Part shown: one piece after another, positions 31,092 through 39,034 of the stretch
Layout of the letters: each line of letters begins with the position of its first letter
Position numbering within the stretch: position 1 is the stretch's first letter
NCBI GenBank assembly: GCA_938005675.1
Contig: CALKXH010000061.1
Location: 1-40,198 of the forward strand
Reading direction: 5' to 3'
Source: an uncultured Anaerolineae bacterium
GTDB taxonomy: Bacteria > Chloroflexota > Anaerolineae > Aggregatilineales > UBA2796
Length of the DNA stretch: 40,198 nucleotides
Position numbers and translations under genes: made by a program
The notes under the pieces: model-generated
What the model was told of the DNA's origin: nothing
Databases searched by the model: none
The model's input: the letters and a program-made list of their open reading frames with translations, nothing else

Positions 31092-33122
31092 TCAGTTCAA
31101 GGCGACTTTGACGACGGGCATGTCATGGCTGGAGGACGGTATCGGCGTGATGCCGACCTCCAAAGGACGGACGCGGCGCAGCCATAGGTAATCGACGCGC
31201 ACGGACGGCTCGTTGACCAAGCGGCGGGTCATGGCGCGCTCCACAGGGAAATCGGCGAAGGGATCGACGAAGTTTTGCGGCGGCTGCGTCAAAAACAGGT
31301 AGATATCGGTCTTGGGCGCGTGGTTGAACGTGCCGCCCAGTATCAGCGCGTTCGGCTCGCTGCGATTCAGCTCCACAAAAGCCAGAATCTCCTGAATTTG
31401 GCGAGCTTGATCGGCTTCGAGCTGCTCGATTGTGAAAGCATCGCTGCGGAAGATCAAGCTGAGCTGCGTGTTGTAGATGTCCAGCACGGCGCCGTTGGGC
31501 TTGAGCAGGCGCACGAACTGCACCGCCGTCGCCTTGCTGAGGGCGGAGAGCTCCGCGCCGCCGCTCTGCAGAATCGGCAAGCGCGAGAGAACCGCTAAGC
31601 CCTGCAGCCCCTCCACCGTCGGCAGGTAGACCGCGTTCATGTTCAGGGCGCGCGCCAACCACGTCACCTGATCGACGCCGCCGCTGACCAGCCGCCCCGT
31701 CTCGACCTCTTGCAGCAGCAGGATATCCACGCCGCTGCGCCAGATGGCGTCGGCGGTGGCGCTCAAGTCGGAGCCAAAATACAGGCTGTAACCGCCGTGC
31801 AGGTTGAGCGTGCCGACCCGCAACGAGGCAGGATCGAGCGGCAACTGCAGGATCGGCGGGCGCGGCAAGCTCAGCGCTAACGCCACGCCCAGCGCGCTCA
31901 ACGCCAAGCCGCCCAGCGTCTCCGCCAAAGCGCCGCCGCGCCACGCCACGCGCTTGCGCGCCCCGATCAGCGGCAGGGCGGCGCAAATCGCCGCAATAAC
32001 CGCCACCAACAGACCTAACCCGCGCATGTTGCGCAAGAGCGTCCCAAATGGCTCTGGCACGCCGCGCACAAACGCCGATTCGAAAGTCAGATAATCCGCC
32101 GCCGAGAAGACGAGAAAGACGATCATGCCCAGCAGCAGTCCGAGCGCGGCGAAAATGAAGCGCCCTCTGCCATCGGAGGGCTGAGTCGCCCACCACCACA
32201 GCAGCGTGAGCATGAACTGCGCAAGGCACAGCGCCGCGAGCGCCACCGCGCCCTCGAAGCGAAAGCCGACCGTCAAACACAAGGCGATGGTCAGCGCCCA
32301 GACCCAACCGCGATAGCGCCCATCGAACATGCCGATGAAGCCGCGCGCCGCTGCGCGCGCAAGCGGCGCGACGGGCAAGAGTGTGGCGGCGGCTAGAAAC
32401 GGCGCTGCCAGCGTGTACTCAACGCCCGCCCGCCGCGCGAGGCTGTTCGGCAAGCCCAGCACGGCGAACTCTAGGTAGAACAAGCCGCCAAGGGCGAGCG
32501 CGCCGCTCAAGTTCAGCGAGGTGTGCGCCCCCGAATCTTGGCGCGGCGCGCCGCCGAAGAGCATCGCTAAGAGCGCACAGATGAACAGTCCGAGCGAGAG
32601 CGCCGTCTGAAAATCGAGGTGAGCGGCTTGCCATGTGAAGTCAGCCGTGTGATCGACGAGGCGGATCAGCCCATCCGCGCCGAAGGCGAGCGCCATGCTG
32701 AGCGGAAACAAGTTCGGACGCCTGACGATGCCAATCGCCATGTGCAGCAGCGCCGCCCCCAGCACGACCGCCGCGCCGCCCACGCCCAGCAGCGTCCCGC
32801 CGTTCGCCGTCATGAAGACTCGCCCCGCCGCCACCAGCGCCGCCGCGATCAGGCTTCCAAACCAGACTCTGCCCAGCAGAGGCGCCAAAAAAGGCAAGAG
32901 CAGCGCCGCGCCGAGCGCGATCAGCTCGTTTTGGAGCGCCTCAGGCGAGACGACGCCGCTTTGATTGACGAGCGTCGCGCTATCGACCGTCAAGGCGACC
33001 AGATTGGCGCTGTTGAAGTGGGCGTAGAGCGTGCTGTAGAGGAAGCGCACGCCCTGCACAAAGAAGAGTGCCACCAGCGCTGCCTCCAGCAAGCCGAACA
33101 GATCGCGTTGGTAGGTCTTCAT
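31092..33122 (-). CDS. Multi-spanning membrane protein with C-terminal endonuclease/exonuclease/phosphatase-like domain
   Basis: The 676-aa product has about ten or more hydrophobic helices in residues 1-430. An EEP-type domain follows (about 440-676): RVGTLNLHGGYS (Asn motif), DILLLQEVETG (metal Glu), LDIYNTQLSLI, SVRVDYLWLRRV and a terminal SSSHDMPVVKVAL (His). The usual GDFN motif reads GGTFNHAP, so the Asp is replaced by Thr and activity is uncertain. EEP domains cleave phosphodiesters in nucleic acids or phospholipids. The ATG at 33122 (MKTYQRDLFGLLEA) is chosen; a TTG 17 codons upstream is an alternative. The ribosome site is weak. It is transcribed with the GT4 gene. Confidence 0.82.
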   Translation of the reverse strand: MKTYQRDLFGLLEAALVALFFVQGVRFLYSTLYAHFNSANLVALTVDSATLVNQSGVVSPEALQNELIALGAALLLPFLAPLLGRVWFGSLIAAALVAAGRVFMTANGGTLLGVGGAAVVLGAALLHMAIGIVRRPNLFPLSMALAFGADGLIRLVDHTADFTWQAAHLDFQTALSLGLFICALLAMLFGGAPRQDSGAHTSLNLSGALALGGLFYLEFAVLGLPNSLARRAGVEYTLAAPFLAAATLLPVAPLARAAARGFIGMFDGRYRGWVWALTIALCLTVGFRFEGAVALAALCLAQFMLTLLWWWATQPSDGRGRFIFAALGLLLGMIVFLVFSAADYLTFESAFVRGVPEPFGTLLRNMRGLGLLVAVIAAICAALPLIGARKRVAWRGGALAETLGGLALSALGVALALSLPRPPILQLPLDPASLRVGTLNLHGGYSLYFGSDLSATADAIWRSGVDILLLQEVETGRLVSGGVDQVTWLARALNMNAVYLPTVEGLQGLAVLSRLPILQSGGAELSALSKATAVQFVRLLKPNGAVLDIYNTQLSLIFRSDAFTIEQLEADQARQIQEILAFVELNRSEPNALILGGTFNHAPKTDIYLFLTQPPQNFVDPFADFPVERAMTRRLVNEPSVRVDYLWLRRVRPLEVGITPIPSSSHDMPVVKVALN

Positions 33123-33180
33123 GGTGCGTGTCGCAATTTCCTGACAGGTGTTATCACAGAGCGCCTGTGGCAATGCGGCT

Positions 33181-33209: not shown

Positions 33210-33276
33210 GTTATGATGTAGAATCGAGGTTGCCCATGAACATGGGAAAGTTCTTGCCAAGTTGGAGCAGCACGCT

Positions 33277-34359
33277 ATGCGAATCGTAATTGATGCAATG
33301 GGCAGCGACCGTCATCCCGTCCCTGATGTGGAAGGTGCCGTGCTGGCAGCCCGCGAACTTGGCGCGCACGATCGCCTGATCTTGGTCGGCGATCAGGCGC
33401 GCATCGCTCAGGAGCTGAATAAACATGACACAGCCGACCTGCCCATCGAGGTCGTCCACGCCAGCCAGCACGTCGATATGCACGATAATCCGACGCAGAC
33501 CGCCCGCCAAAAGCCCGACTCATCCATGCTGGTCGCCATGAAGCTGGTGCGCGACGGGCAGGCGGATGCCGTTGTGACTGCTGGCAACACCGGCGCTGCT
33601 CTGACTTTGGCGACTCTGCACACGCTGCAACGCATTCGCGGCGTGCGCCGCCCCGCCCTCACCTCGCTCTTGCGCGTGGAGAACAATCAGCTCGTAGTCA
33701 TGGCGGATTTGGGCGCCAACCCGGACGCGCAGCCCGAATGGATGTTCCAGTTCGGCGTGATGGGCAGCCTGTACGCCCAGCACGTGCTGGGGCAGACTCG
33801 TCCGCGCGTGGCGTTGCTCTCCAACGGGGAGGAGGAGGGCAAGGGCAATCAGGTGGTGCGCCAAAGCGCCGCGCTCTTCGCCAACTCCAACTTGAATTTC
33901 ATCGGCAACGTCGAGCCGAAAGAGGTGCTGCAAGGCGCCGCCGATGTGGTGGTGACCGACGGCTTCGTGGGCAACGTCATGCTCAAGACGATGGAGGCGG
34001 TTGGCGAGGCATTTTTCCGCGTGATGCGCCGCGAGCTGCTGCGCAATCCGCTGCGCATCTTGGGCGGCTTTTTGATCAGCCCGGTGCTGCGCAAGATTTA
34101 CAAGCAAGTCGATCCCTTTGAGATCGGCGGCGCGCCGCTGCTGGGCGTGAACGGCGTGGTCATCATCGGTCACGGGCGCACCAACGCCAAAGGCATCAAG
34201 AATGCCATCGCGCAGGCGCGCCGCGCCGTAGAGGGCAACCTGATCGAGGCGATTCGGCAAGGCATGGCGCGCTACATCGCTCAATACAGCTCGCCTGCGC
34301 CTGCCAAGCCGCGCCGCCGCTATCTGGCGCGCCGTCGGCACAAGCCGATCAAGGCTTGA
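33277..34359 (+). CDS. plsX: Phosphate acyltransferase PlsX
   Basis: PlsX converts acyl-ACP to acyl-phosphate, which PlsY uses to start phospholipid synthesis; it works as a peripheral membrane protein. The 360-aa product has the signature start MRIVIDAMGSDRHP, then VVTAGNTGAALTLAT, RPALTSLLRVENN, VLLSN-type ALLSNGEEEGKGN, GAADVVVTDGFVGNVMLKTMEA and GAPLLGVNGVVIIGHG. Length is slightly above the usual 330-350 because of a basic tail (KPRRRYLARRRHKPIKA). The ATG at 33277 has GGAG about 9 bases upstream. fabD, fabG or acpP neighbours, common elsewhere, are absent. It overlaps the convergent secreted-protein gene by 11 bp. Confidence 0.97.
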   Translation: MRIVIDAMGSDRHPVPDVEGAVLAARELGAHDRLILVGDQARIAQELNKHDTADLPIEVVHASQHVDMHDNPTQTARQKPDSSMLVAMKLVRDGQADAVVTAGNTGAALTLATLHTLQRIRGVRRPALTSLLRVENNQLVVMADLGANPDAQPEWMFQFGVMGSLYAQHVLGQTRPRVALLSNGEEEGKGNQVVRQSAALFANSNLNFIGNVEPKEVLQGAADVVVTDGFVGNVMLKTMEAVGEAFFRVMRRELLRNPLRILGGFLISPVLRKIYKQVDPFEIGGAPLLGVNGVVIIGHGRTNAKGIKNAIAQARRAVEGNLIEAIRQGMARYIAQYSSPAPAKPRRRYLARRRHKPIKA

Positions 34360-34930
34360 GCGCGCCCAAGCCGCGCCATGGCGAGGTATTGCGCTGATTG
34401 AAGCCGCGCGTTGCCACGCCCAGCCGCACCACGTGCGCGTAGGGCGAGTTGTGCGTCGCCGCCGACTGATGCCAAACCTCTATCAGCAGCCTGCCACCAT
34501 CGCACAGCAGGGTCTGATTTATGCCGCGCCGCGTGCGCTCGAAGAAAGTGGTTTCAGGCGCGCCGAAAGCCGCCAACACCTCGCCCAGCGGCAACGGCTC
34601 TAAAAGCGTCACAAACATCACTGGATCGCTCGCCTGACTGACGATGATGGTGAACTGATCGCTGCCGAAGACGGCGAGATCGTCGTTGAACAGCCCCTGA
34701 TCGCCCGATGCGGTCAGCGGATGCGCTTGCAGCAGCTTGACGATGGGCGCGAGCGCTAGATGCGTCGGCTGCACGCCGAAGAGGCATGGCGTGGCACAGG
34801 GCGCTCCATCCGGCGCGCTGAAATACGCCGCGTAAGGGCTCGTTTGAGCGGCGCCGACTGCCCGCGCCGTCGCCATCAGCGCCACCATCAGCGCGGCGAC
34901 TCCGCTCAACAGGCGCCAGAGCCGCTTCAT
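34349..34930 (-). CDS. Secreted CxxPC-motif protein, copy 2 of a tandem pair
   Basis: The 193-aa product has a signal peptide (about 1-28, MKRLWRLLSGVAALMVALMA, cut near VGAAQ). Near the start of the mature protein is DGAPCATPCLFGVQP, a C-x-x-P-C motif. HPL and LGEVLAAFGAPE follow. Each of these blocks recurs in the gene just upstream, so the two are paralogues although overall similarity looks low. The two cysteines probably form a disulphide. No family name was recognised. The ATG immediately follows the previous TAG (TAGATG). It overlaps plsX by 11 bp at its end. Confidence 0.75.
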   Translation of the reverse strand: MKRLWRLLSGVAALMVALMATARAVGAAQTSPYAAYFSAPDGAPCATPCLFGVQPTHLALAPIVKLLQAHPLTASGDQGLFNDDLAVFGSDQFTIIVSQASDPVMFVTLLEPLPLGEVLAAFGAPETTFFERTRRGINQTLLCDGGRLLIEVWHQSAATHNSPYAHVVRLGVATRGFNQRNTSPWRGLGALKP

Positions 34931-35632
34931 CTAGGGCATCCGCGAGGTTTGCAGGTAGCGGCGGGCGGGGCTGAAGCCGTGCCACGTCGTGGCGGAAAAA
35001 GTCAGCCCTTGCCACGAGTCGCGGTACCAATCCGCCGCGCTGATGCCGATGTATTGCACCTGATCGCCCGTGCGCACGTGCGTGCCATCCGCCTTGCCGC
35101 CGATCTGGCTGGTGACGACCATGCCATGCTCTGGATAGAACAGGCGCGCCATGTTGGTGCTGCGGCGCGGCACAAGCACGTGCGCGGGCTTGCCGAAGCG
35201 CGCCAAAACTTCGCCCAGCGCGCCCAGCGACTTGATGGGTCTGTAGCCCTGACTGAAACGTTCGGCGGGCAGGATGACCGTGTTGAACGGCTCGGTATGG
35301 ATGCTGATCAGGGCGAGTTCGTTGCGCCTGCCGCGCAGCAAGACCACAGTCACGTCCACGCCGATCAGCTCGACTAAATTGCCGTTCACGCGCTCTGTCA
35401 GCAGCTGACCGCGCATCAGGGGATGCTCGCGCACGAGGCGCAGGGCGTCCATGAAGAGGGTCTGGCTGGGCTGCACGCCCAGCATACACGGGAAGGCGCA
35501 CGCGCCACCATCGGCATCGGTGAAGAGCTGATCGATTGTCAGGGCTTGGGCGCTCCCAACGACGCGCGTCGTGCCGATCAGAGCAGCAAAAAGCAGACTC
35601 AAAGCAGTTAATAGCGTGATCAAGCGCCTCAT
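34931..35632 (-). CDS. Secreted CxxPC-motif protein, copy 1 of a tandem pair
   Basis: The 233-aa product has a signal peptide (MRRLITLLTALSLLFAALIG, cut near VGSAQ) almost parallel to that of the next gene. The mature N-terminus carries DGGACAFPCMLGVQPSQT, then VREHPLMRG and LGALGEVLARFGKPA. It is longer than its paralogue in the middle. The ATG at 35632 has AGGGTGAG at good spacing and lies 4 bp after the M23 peptidase stop; a longer frame to 35701 would overlap that gene and is rejected. Function unknown; its operon suggests an envelope role. Confidence 0.75.
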   Translation of the reverse strand: MRRLITLLTALSLLFAALIGTTRVVGSAQALTIDQLFTDADGGACAFPCMLGVQPSQTLFMDALRLVREHPLMRGQLLTERVNGNLVELIGVDVTVVLLRGRRNELALISIHTEPFNTVILPAERFSQGYRPIKSLGALGEVLARFGKPAHVLVPRRSTNMARLFYPEHGMVVTSQIGGKADGTHVRTGDQVQYIGISAADWYRDSWQGLTFSATTWHGFSPARRYLQTSRMP

Positions 35633-35636
35633 CGGC

Positions 35637-36881
35637 TCACCCTGCCGGCGTCGGCGATGGCTGAGGCAGCGGCACGACCTCGAACTCCGTGAAATCCACA
35701 AAGGAGGTGGTGGCGGGGCGCACGGTCACATCTCGGACGAGCCGCCTGCCGTTCAAGAAGACCACGACCTCGTAGATGCCCGCTGGCACATCGCCGATCA
35801 CGAAATTCTCGCGCCAGACCTCATCGCTGTTGACATTCCACGTGCGGCGGTTGGGCTGGCGCGGATTGACGTAGGTGGTGGTCGTATCGACTTTGCGCCC
35901 ATTTTTCATCAGCACCACGTTCACATCCTCCGCCAGCGCGCCGTTTGATAGCGTGACGCGCCCCGCCACCACGCCGTGATTTTCATAGGGCGCCATCCAC
36001 AGCAGCGGATTGCGCGTCTCGTAGTAGCTGTTGCGCCCGACGCGCACCTCAAAATGCACGTGCGGTCCGCTGACCACGCCGCTGCGTCCGCTCAAGCCGA
36101 TGATCTCGCCCGTCTGCACGTCTTGCCCCGCGCTGACGAGGATCAGCTGCAGATGGGCGTAGAGCGTGTAGAGGCGCTTGCCCTGAAAGCCGAAGTTATG
36201 CTCGATGATCACGACGTTGCCGTAGCTGTACGCCGACTCGACGTAGCGCCCGTTCTCATACCAGACGTAGTTATCCGCCGCCCAGATGACGCGCCCCGCC
36301 GCTGCAGCGCGCACCTCCTTGCCGATTGGATTGGGCAGATCGATGCCGTGATGGATGCGCCACTCGTTGTTGGGTCCGTCTGAGCCGTAGGCGTACAGGA
36401 ACAGCGAGGCGCTGTTGGCGGAGGAGTCGACGGGGCGGCGGAACCAGAAATGATCGCGCGGATCGAGCGAGAGCGGCACTTGCTCAGGCGGCGGCGAGAA
36501 CTCGCCGCGGCGCGGATCGTTGTTGCGGGCGACGGCGGGCGCCTGCGGGCTATTCACAGCGGTCGGCGGCGCTACAGTCGGGCGCTGCGGCTGAAAGCGG
36601 ACGGGCGTGGGCGTGTGCTGCCAGAGCAACAGCGGGGTGGGCGTGTGCGTCGGGGCGGGCGTGGGGCTGGGTGGCGGCGCGGTGCGCACCGCCAACAGCT
36701 CGCCCTGAACGACATCCTCCCAAGCGCTGCTGCGCGGCGTGAAGGTCGGGGGCGGGGGCGCAATGGACGTCGCGGCGGGCGATTCGGACTCAGCTGTGAG
36801 CGGACGGAAGAGCCACAGCGCCACGAACGCCGCCACGCCGCTTAGAGCTAAGACTGTCAGAGCGCCGATGGCTTTGTGCAT
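35637..36881 (-). CDS. Membrane-anchored M23 family metallopeptidase
   Basis: The 414-aa product has an N-terminal membrane anchor or signal (about 5-27, IGALTVLALSGVAAFVALWLF). A Thr/Pro-rich linker (about 40-125) precedes the LytM/M23 domain (about 165-300). Zinc ligands are visible as HHGIDLP (H and D) and GPHVHFEVRVG (HxH), with LYTLYAHLQL in between, so the site looks complete. A C-terminal Ig-like beta domain follows (about 310-400). Such enzymes cut peptidoglycan cross-bridges outside the cell. The ATG at 36881 has GAGG upstream; the longer frame would run into the preceding gene. It lies 14 bp after the propeller gene. Confidence 0.93.
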   Translation of the reverse strand: MHKAIGALTVLALSGVAAFVALWLFRPLTAESESPAATSIAPPPPTFTPRSSAWEDVVQGELLAVRTAPPPSPTPAPTHTPTPLLLWQHTPTPVRFQPQRPTVAPPTAVNSPQAPAVARNNDPRRGEFSPPPEQVPLSLDPRDHFWFRRPVDSSANSASLFLYAYGSDGPNNEWRIHHGIDLPNPIGKEVRAAAAGRVIWAADNYVWYENGRYVESAYSYGNVVIIEHNFGFQGKRLYTLYAHLQLILVSAGQDVQTGEIIGLSGRSGVVSGPHVHFEVRVGRNSYYETRNPLLWMAPYENHGVVAGRVTLSNGALAEDVNVVLMKNGRKVDTTTTYVNPRQPNRRTWNVNSDEVWRENFVIGDVPAGIYEVVVFLNGRRLVRDVTVRPATTSFVDFTEFEVVPLPQPSPTPAG

Positions 36882-36895
36882 TGTGTTCTGCCTCG

Positions 36896-39034
36896 TCAGT
36901 TGCCCGCGTCGGGCGGGATGGGCGTGGGCGAGCGGCGCGGCGATGGCGCGGAAGTGGGTGTAGCGGTCGGCTGCAGCCTTGCGCCGAACAGGAACGCGTC
37001 GATCTGCTCTTGAGTGTAGAGTTCCAGCATCGCCTCGTCCCAAGTCAGCCCGTCGCGGCGCTCGAACTGCCAATACAGGATGCTGGGAAAATTGCTGCGC
37101 CAATCGCGCCCGGCGGGCACGCGTTGCCAGCCGTAATCCTCGGCGAGGCGGGTCAGGTCTATGTAGTAGCCGACGGGCACAGCCGCTTTCGGACGCCCGC
37201 CCTGCTCAAAAATCTGCGGATCGCCCAGCGCGCGGCTGGCAAAATCCCACGGCAAGCGCTTGAGCGGCTCGCCCAGCTGACCGTTTTGGGCAGTCTCCGC
37301 CACGCGCAGATAGACTCGCCACATCACGTTGGCGCCGACCTCCTCGCGCACCACCTCGATGGGCGGGACGGGCAGGTTGAAGACCAAGTTTCGGTCGAAG
37401 GAGAAGGCGCGTCCGGCGTAGTGCCAGCTCTGGCGCGGCTGACCCGGTTCAGGCAACCGATCCAGCGTCCAGAGGGCATCCTGCAGCGCGCCGAGAAAGT
37501 CCACGCCGCTTTGCCGCAAAACTGCCTCGCGCAGGGCGACGAACGAGTCATCCACGCGGTCGGAGAGGGCAGCCAGCCCTCCCGCCGAGACGCCGCTGAG
37601 GGCGCGCACCTGATAGTAAGGCGGGCTATCGCGTTTGCCCTCCACGTTCTCCACGTAGAGCGGGCGCTCGTCATCGGGCGCGCCGCCGCTCAGCAAGAGC
37701 GCCTCTGGCAGGCTGCTCGCCGTCCAGCTGATGCGCCCAACTTGCCCGTTGACGCTGATGGCGGTCGCGGCGGCGCCGCTGCCAGAGACCAAGGCGCTGA
37801 CAAGGGTCGTGTTGGCGGCGTTCTCCAGCGCGAAGAGCAAGCTCCCTCCGCTCGGCGACCAGCTGGGCGCGCGCCCGCGCCCGATGATGAGCGGCTCGGC
37901 GTTGGGCTGCGCAACGTTGCGCACAAGGACGAGATCGATGCCATTGACGCGCGCATAGTAGGCGATCTGAGTGCCGTCAGGGCTCCACGTCGGCTGCTGC
38001 TCTTCGATGTCGGGCGTGCTGGTCAGGCGCAGCGCCTCCTCTTCGAGGGGGCGGTCGAGGTCGATCACGTAGATTTCGGGGTTGCCGTCGCGCAGGCTGA
38101 CGTAAGCGATCTGGCGACCGGGCACTGGCGAGCCGCCAGGGTTCCAAGTCGGCGCGAAGTCGGGCGCGGGATGATAGGTCAGGCGGGCGGGCGGGCTAGA
38201 GCCATCGCTCGCCACGATGTAGATATCGAGGTTGCCGCCCTCGTAGGCTTCGTAGGCGATGAACTGCCCATCCGGGCTCCACGAGGGCGCGCCGACATAA
38301 TCGGGCGAGTAGGTCAGCTGCGTGATCGCGCCGGTGGCGATCTCCAGCAAGTACAAGTTCCAGCTGCCGCCCCGCCGACTGGCAAAAGCAACCCGCGACC
38401 CGTCCGGACTCCAAGCCGGATCGCGGTCGTCGGTCGGCGTGTTGGTCAGGCGGATCGGCTGAGTCTGTCCGATGCCGAGCGCCCACAGATTCTCGCGTCC
38501 GTTCAGGCGCGCCGAGTAGACGAGGCTTCCGCTGATGCGCAATGGGTCGGGCACAGGCGTGAAGGTCGGGATGGGCGTGGGCGTCGGCGGCACGGGCGTG
38601 GACGTCGGCTGGGTGGGGATGAGCGGCAAGCTGCCCCCGAAGCTGCCCGCCACCGAGCGCGCTGAGCCGCCGCCTGAGGTCGTCCACAGGATCAAGCCGA
38701 TCAGGGCGGCGAGCAGCACGACCGTGAACAGGCTGAGGGCGCGATTTTGCGCTTTGAGAGGGTCTTCGCGCAGGACGCGCTTATCCGGGGCGTGCGCGGC
38801 GATCTGCTCGGCACGGCGCGCCATCATGGCGCGGCTGCGCTGAGCTGTGGTGGCATAGATAGCGCGCCCGCCCCGCAAGACGTAGAGGGCTATGCCCGCC
38901 AAGAGCGCCAGAATGCCGACAACAGAGACTCGCCACAGATAGAGCTGATAGGCGGCTTGCTGCAAAGAGCCGCTCAACAGCCGCAACAGCGCGTTGATGA
39001 GCTTATCGGTCAGGCGGAGCAGGCGGGTTAGCAT
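36896..39034 (-). CDS. Membrane-anchored TolB/PD40-type beta-propeller with unknown C-terminal domain
   Basis: The 712-aa product has two N-terminal helices (about 36-54 and 98-117), then a Pro/Thr linker (TPVPPTPTPIPTFTPVPDP). A propeller of PD40 repeats follows (about 165-420): RDPAWSPDGSRVAFAS, GAPSWSPDGQFIAYEA, FAPTWNPGG, QQPTWSPDGTQIAYYA and RAPSWSPSGGSLLFA. The last roughly 270 residues are not a propeller and were not recognised; they contain YYIDLTRLAEDYGWQRV and ILYWQFERRDGLTWDEAML. The product is followed by the M23 peptidase in the operon, suggesting it binds or guides wall substrates or enzymes. The ribosome site is weak. Confidence 0.85.
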   Translation of the reverse strand: MLTRLLRLTDKLINALLRLLSGSLQQAAYQLYLWRVSVVGILALLAGIALYVLRGGRAIYATTAQRSRAMMARRAEQIAAHAPDKRVLREDPLKAQNRALSLFTVVLLAALIGLILWTTSGGGSARSVAGSFGGSLPLIPTQPTSTPVPPTPTPIPTFTPVPDPLRISGSLVYSARLNGRENLWALGIGQTQPIRLTNTPTDDRDPAWSPDGSRVAFASRRGGSWNLYLLEIATGAITQLTYSPDYVGAPSWSPDGQFIAYEAYEGGNLDIYIVASDGSSPPARLTYHPAPDFAPTWNPGGSPVPGRQIAYVSLRDGNPEIYVIDLDRPLEEEALRLTSTPDIEEQQPTWSPDGTQIAYYARVNGIDLVLVRNVAQPNAEPLIIGRGRAPSWSPSGGSLLFALENAANTTLVSALVSGSGAAATAISVNGQVGRISWTASSLPEALLLSGGAPDDERPLYVENVEGKRDSPPYYQVRALSGVSAGGLAALSDRVDDSFVALREAVLRQSGVDFLGALQDALWTLDRLPEPGQPRQSWHYAGRAFSFDRNLVFNLPVPPIEVVREEVGANVMWRVYLRVAETAQNGQLGEPLKRLPWDFASRALGDPQIFEQGGRPKAAVPVGYYIDLTRLAEDYGWQRVPAGRDWRSNFPSILYWQFERRDGLTWDEAMLELYTQEQIDAFLFGARLQPTATPTSAPSPRRSPTPIPPDAGN

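Follow-up and report, generated by a model that had tools for sequence, protein, structure and literature searches.

Results

Two adjacent genes facing plsX

The window, by which we mean the whole 40,198-nt stretch of uncultured Anaerolineae DNA that was analysed, carries two genes, B and A, that follow one another directly on the minus strand (Table 1). The coordinates and the TAGATG junction that an earlier sequence-only reading had given for them are both exact. Each gene begins with ATG, at 35632 in B and 34930 in A, and the last bases of A overlap the end of a convergent gene (33262-34359) that lies tail to tail with it and that we take to be plsX. On the other side, the stop codon of an M23 peptidase gene lies 4 nt from the start of B, and the two are likely to be on the same transcript. 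Positions 31092-33173 of the window encode a large membrane protein whose C-terminal domain is of the endonuclease/exonuclease/phosphatase type (Pfam E 2.4e-5); a gene of this type also adjoins plsX in the metagenome-assembled genomes SKYG67 and 629H.12, and was not seen there in the CFX4 stretch.

Table 1. Features of the B-A locus, in window coordinates
Feature	Position	Strand	Basis
PD40 (WD40-like) propeller gene, upstream of the M23 gene	36896..39034	-	Pfam PD40, E 6.9e-34
M23 peptidase gene, neighbour	35637..36884	-	Pfam Peptidase_M23, E 2.5e-23
Gene B, 233 aa, predicted exported, upstream pair member, stop codon included	34931..35632	-	profile E 9.8e-74, B in seed
B N-terminal hydrophobic signal/anchor, residues 1-30	35543..35632	-	model helix 2-24, hydropathy
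B DGGACAFPCMLGVQP block, residues 41-55, Cys45 and Cys49	35468..35512	-	sequence, alignment
Gene A, 193 aa, predicted exported, downstream pair member, stop codon included	34349..34930	-	profile E 2.0e-60, A in seed
A N-terminal hydrophobic signal/anchor helix, residues 1-28	34847..34930	-	model helix 2-28, hydropathy
A DGAPCATPCLFGVQP block, residues 41-55, Cys45 and Cys49	34766..34810	-	sequence, alignment

The shared cysteine block described earlier is present in both proteins, with one correction: a residue was missing from the motif as first written, which reads DG-x-x-C-x-x-P-C-(L/M)-(F/L)-GVQP and not DG-x-C. An HPL block and LGEVLA-x-FG-x-P are likewise found in both. That A and B are paralogues, as had been suggested, is borne out by BLASTP (E 5e-18, 25% identity, signal regions included) and by alignment scores well above those of shuffled sequences. 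Local alignment (Smith-Waterman) from residue 30 onwards scores 104, where 2000 shuffles give 29.6 +/- 4.9 (maximum 59); from residue 56 on, the observed score was reached by one of 2000. Crude dN/dS values across four species (6 pairs each), with synonymous sites partly saturated, are 0.12-0.21 for B and 0.08-0.28 for A, and both genes look to be protein-coding and under purifying selection within the genus. Internal duplication within the proteins, as judged from sequence, was dropped, the profile comparison having detected no repeat (hhalign probability 0.2%).

A multicopy family with predicted export

Relatives of B and A were collected with a profile, A1, of 31 rows with A and B in its seed. 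It finds eight members in the window's own genome and 100 matches in the taxonomic family, where all 11 genomes have them, at 2-20 per genome; further members thus exist in the per-genome count that the sequence-only reading had proposed. B alone as query has relatives in 13 of 61 genomes, namely all 11 of the taxonomic family and two others of the order. Beyond these, A1 matches at least 23 of 199 genomes in a class-wide sample (at 1e-5) and at least 11 of 301 in a phylum-wide sample. A second profile, A7, built from distant members and holding no row from the window's taxonomic family, its rows having first been found with A1, matches at least 16 of the 301 phylum-wide genomes, at least three of them outside the class. 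These three sample counts include the window's genome and are lower bounds, at most 14, 9 and 11 candidates per genome, respectively, having been scored. Turned on the window's genome, A7 recovers at least six members (best E 2.8e-11).

Rows of both profiles were picked by a regular expression that needs two cysteines. Left out of A1 were a partial frame in L023, a chance frame in L019, and L025, L033, L034 and L038, which failed the pattern or length limit; left out of A7 were the short L083 and eight loci whose frames the pattern missed (L047, L049, L052, L054, L055, L057, L066 and L074). A separate narrow-pattern scan of genome contigs returned six loci, all from Chloroflexi or Anaerolineae, among them the metagenome-assembled genomes J076, SKYG67, CFX4 and 629H.12, which correspond to our genomes G003, G001, G004 and G002 (translated proteins identical by eye).

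The profile searches led neither to a well-characterised family nor to a want of further members, and the description of the family as undescribed holds for the catalogues searched. Pfam has no family for A or B up to E 10, and Pfam and NCBIfam together gave nothing better than E 0.01 for A, B or the relatives scanned. The best sub-threshold names, all treated as chance, were at E 0.11 and 0.013 in Pfam (31 + 25 relatives, up to E 1), at E 0.21 (A, B) and 0.046 (relatives) in NCBIfam, at E 1.1 among PDB sequences and at 0.061 in PHROGs; membership of a known catalogued family was dropped on these grounds. A mobile origin was dropped as well, both the search of plasmids for family relatives and that of viral contigs with B as query having come back empty. 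A profile match, a hydrophobic or lipid-anchored N-terminus and a cysteine pair are all present in B and A, which are themselves in the seed. Taken together, the searches point to a real multicopy Chloroflexota family, scattered over the phylum and absent from the catalogues searched.

The window's genome has a second tandem pair of members, of a C-x-L-P-x-C-W subtype (G000:C105:64083-65344, locus L089); similar tandems lie in J076 (C115) and SKYG67 (C195).

Hydropathy gives 98 of the 100 members a hydrophobic N-terminus, and for the two that fell below the threshold the segment scored had been chosen badly. Ten of the 100 match a lipobox pattern, nine of which look genuine by eye; the tenth, G008:C144, looks false. 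With location itself a prediction, these counts favour the exported or envelope nature proposed earlier, and B and A are predicted to be exported. Many distant members are also lipoprotein-like by eye. The lipoprotein subtype (G001:C11, G002:C144, G003:C203, G004:C9, G005:C48, G006:C1:1404623, G008:C32, G009:C23 and G010:C95) provides one match in each of nine of the 11 family genomes, with none seen in the window's genome or in G007.

An old pair, lost in one genome

The order PD40-M23-B-A, facing plsX, is kept in four of the five genomes of the genus (the window's, J076, SKYG67 and CFX4), and in another genus G006 has a B-like gene followed by an A-like gene in tandem. A tree built from 31 members places B beside its counterparts with 86/84 support; the support that joins A to its counterpart is weak, at 83/59. 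In this tree each of the two has closer relatives than the other. The pair is therefore old and not recent, and the old duplication suggested by the sequence-only reading agrees with the order kept in the genus, the tandem in a second genus and the tree, in which the A half is the weakly supported one.

In the fifth genome, 629H.12, the M23 gene is followed directly by plsX, with a gap of 60 nt between them (L158, G002:C218, 2480-2560). What is left of A in this gap is a remnant of its end, which in one frame reads LPAPVVWLGVALWRGLSALKR-stop. When the gap DNA was aligned with the A end of the window, J076 and SKYG67, none of 1000 shuffles did as well, and against that of CFX4 three of 1000 did, the aligned stretch running 15 nt into plsX. 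The remnant implies that B and nearly all of A were deleted there, and the B-A pair is dispensable, as this natural deletion shows. Pieces of M23 and plsX from five genomes gave a tree that does not settle the placement of 629H.12.

Elsewhere the surroundings change. Around other members, in ten stretches with our own gene calls read by eye, no neighbour is constant. Among the few neighbours scanned with Pfam, the one next to the G006 pair is a G5/DUF348 protein, itself weakly matched by PD40, and SH3_3 proteins adjoin two other members.

Cysteines that behave as a pair

The invariance of the two cysteines in the A1 and A7 alignments is partly built in, because the rows were chosen by a two-cysteine pattern. 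For this reason we classified those 70 of the 100 matches in the taxonomic family that lie outside the seed and were not filtered for cysteines, the profile itself being built from A1. A C-x(2-5)-C pair is present in 64 of them (61 inside the segment searched, three upstream in the same frame), five have a swapped partner, one has no cysteine at that place and none has a single one. In the five swapped members (G005:C23, G008:C12, G009:C10, G009:C24 and G009:C34) the first cysteine is gone and a new one stands five residues past the second, giving CWxx[ILV]CP. G009:C45 is the member without cysteines at the motif place; a frame outside the 70, L094:7298-7795, also lacks both motif cysteines. 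The pair-or-none pattern and the change of partner are more readily explained by a structural disulphide than by a redox or metal site of fixed geometry, and a putative Cys45-Cys49 disulphide is probable from cysteines that behave as a pair. The window's genome encodes a VKOR protein (E 2.3e-22).

A predicted fold of two units

Structure prediction, which had been proposed for both proteins, gave AlphaFold models with pLDDT 87.7 for A (pTM 0.78, 11 sequences in the alignment) and 72.7 for B (seven sequences). The A model opens with an N-terminal helix and a small hairpin that surrounds Cys45-Cys49; a helix-loop-helix (60-69 and 71-74) with four strands comes next, and then a helix (115-122) with four strands. 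The order of elements in B is similar but less complete; confidence in this model drops at 19-27, where the N-terminal helix (2-24) ends, and again at 115-125, 179-183 and the C-terminus. DSSP places isolated bridge residues 38, 44, 50 and 53 on either side of Cys45 and Cys49 in both models.

The top VIA-align match to both models, of moderate strength, is the DUF4309 protein YjgB of Bacillus subtilis (4ygt), at Z 8.6 over 132 residues and 4.1 A for B, and at Z 6.3 over 114 residues and 4.7 A for A, a score in the program's "possibly common arrangement" range. Identity in these structural alignments is 11% for B and 5% for A, and the DUF4309 profile is matched neither by A and B (Pfam up to E 10) nor by the 31 + 25 relatives (up to E 1). 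Foldseek against the PDB found no match at E <= 0.001 for either model; its first match for B is again 4ygt (E 1.4e-2), and for A other proteins ranked first, with 4ygt absent among the best 50 matches listed. In the papers listed, the name YjgB refers mostly to an unrelated E. coli dehydrogenase.

Other likenesses remain at the level of fold. The N-terminal part of secreted SCP/CAP proteins matches B at Z 7.1 (4ifa) and 6.7 (4h0a), and 4h0a matches A at Z 4.4; A (193 aa) and B (233 aa) differ from these proteins in having no SCP/CAP domain by Pfam. E. coli YfeY (2qzb), which we take to be an envelope protein, matches B in part (Z 6.6) with no sequence match. OsmE (4dm5), presumably akin to BamE, matches A weakly (Foldseek E 0.39, VIA Z 2.7); the BamE/SmpA-OmlA profile was unmatched by A, B and relatives in Pfam, and neither BamE nor BLIP itself is among the best 50 structure matches listed per model.

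In the published BLIP description a 76-residue unit occurs in tandem, each copy packing a helix-loop-helix against a four-stranded antiparallel sheet (PMC6121496). The A model has its elements in a matching order, a likeness at fold level only. No sequence match joins BLIP to B or A, and the one BLIP-like entry among the matches listed is the putative 3d4e (Z 2.9, B). The B/A family, as it appears here, is set apart from BLIP by a predicted membrane tether and by the C-x-x-P-C hairpin. From these moderate matches, the predicted fold is two helix-plus-four-strand units in tandem, BLIP/DUF4309-like, and is probably one already known in kind.

Discussion

We propose that B and A are ancient Chloroflexota paralogues that are exported, tethered, pinned by a disulphide and built of two units, and that they act together as binders, a joint reading to which we give a probability of roughly 0.5. 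Both proteins would leave the cell through the Sec pathway and remain anchored on the outside of the membrane, through the N-terminal helix in B and A and through lipid in other members. As in BLIP and the DUF4309 proteins, each would be built from a tandem pair of helix-plus-four-strand units. The C-x-x-P-C hairpin, closed by a disulphide between Cys45 and Cys49 that a VKOR-type system would probably make, would fasten the N-terminal linker to the first unit. The fold suggests the large antiparallel sheet as the most likely protein-binding face; BLIP docks its target with its concave face (PMC6121496). Joint action of B and A is probable, since their tandem arrangement persists while the surrounding genes vary. 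The analyses run identified no binding partner for either protein. A bolder version would see here an uncatalogued superfamily of binders with the BLIP fold, tethered to the surface and pinned by a disulphide, that is scattered through Chloroflexota, reaches 20 copies per genome and amounts to an expandable repertoire of binding or inhibitor modules, with B and A as an obligate heteromeric pair recognising a specific envelope or foreign protein; it is speculative and in our view improbable.

It is possible, if doubtful, that these are instead fast-diversifying surface proteins (receptors, adhesins or decoys) that are gained and lost, with B and A merely adjacent. Copy numbers of 2-20, the deep divergence of the paralogues, the loss of the pair in one genome and the varying neighbourhoods would all suit such a set. 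The apparently clear purifying selection on B and A within the genus does not, nor does the recurrence of the tandem in a second genus, with which the tree support is compatible, if partly weak.

The adjacent peptidase invites a more specific alternative, in which B and A would be dedicated to M23 as partners or inhibitors, made from the same transcript and binding M23 or the PD40 propeller at the membrane surface. The conserved gene order in four of the five genus genomes and the 4-nt spacing fit such a role, as do the G5/DUF348 protein with weak PD40 matches beside the G006 pair and the SH3_3 proteins beside two other members. A member in G006 also lies on the same contig and strand as M23, ~9.5 kb downstream, and BLIP can inhibit an enzyme (PMC6121496). 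However, M23 and PD40 have best matches in all 11 family genomes (the PD40 match in G002 being partial), and A1 finds no member within the 5-6 kb downstream of M23 in any of the five other-genus genomes whose DNA was fetched; in the sixth, G007, the contig ends downstream of M23. Six other members of the window's genome lie on contigs with no M23 match at 1e-10, and 629H.12 retains M23 without the pair. Because M23 persists where the pair is missing, an obligate link between them is unlikely. The five other-genus genomes and the 629H.12 deletion weaken the partnership as the main explanation, and we hold it to be unlikely.

That C-x-x-P-C is a redox or metal-binding active site, which would make these proteins thiol oxidoreductases or metal carriers, is very improbable: most members do have a cysteine pair near the N-terminus, and the HPL histidine is nearly invariant in the seed alignment, but the spacing ranges from C-x2-C to C-x5-C and in five of 70 members the first cysteine has moved to the other side of the second, which is more in keeping with a structural bridge than with a site of fixed geometry. 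Conservation of the HP pair does not extend to the distant-member alignment, and no thioredoxin-like match appeared in Pfam or among the best 50 structure matches listed per model.

Compared with what the sequence-only reading had offered, the analysis adds a multicopy family, its scatter over the phylum, a predicted BLIP/DUF4309-like fold and the loss of the pair from one genus genome. Neither Pfam nor NCBIfam, in the releases searched, includes this apparently exported family, which belongs to a phylum whose envelope is poorly understood. It gains a structural hypothesis, that of a BLIP/DUF4309-like binder. A candidate disulphide with natural rearrangements, together with a natural deletion of the pair, may serve as starting points for work on this unnamed family.
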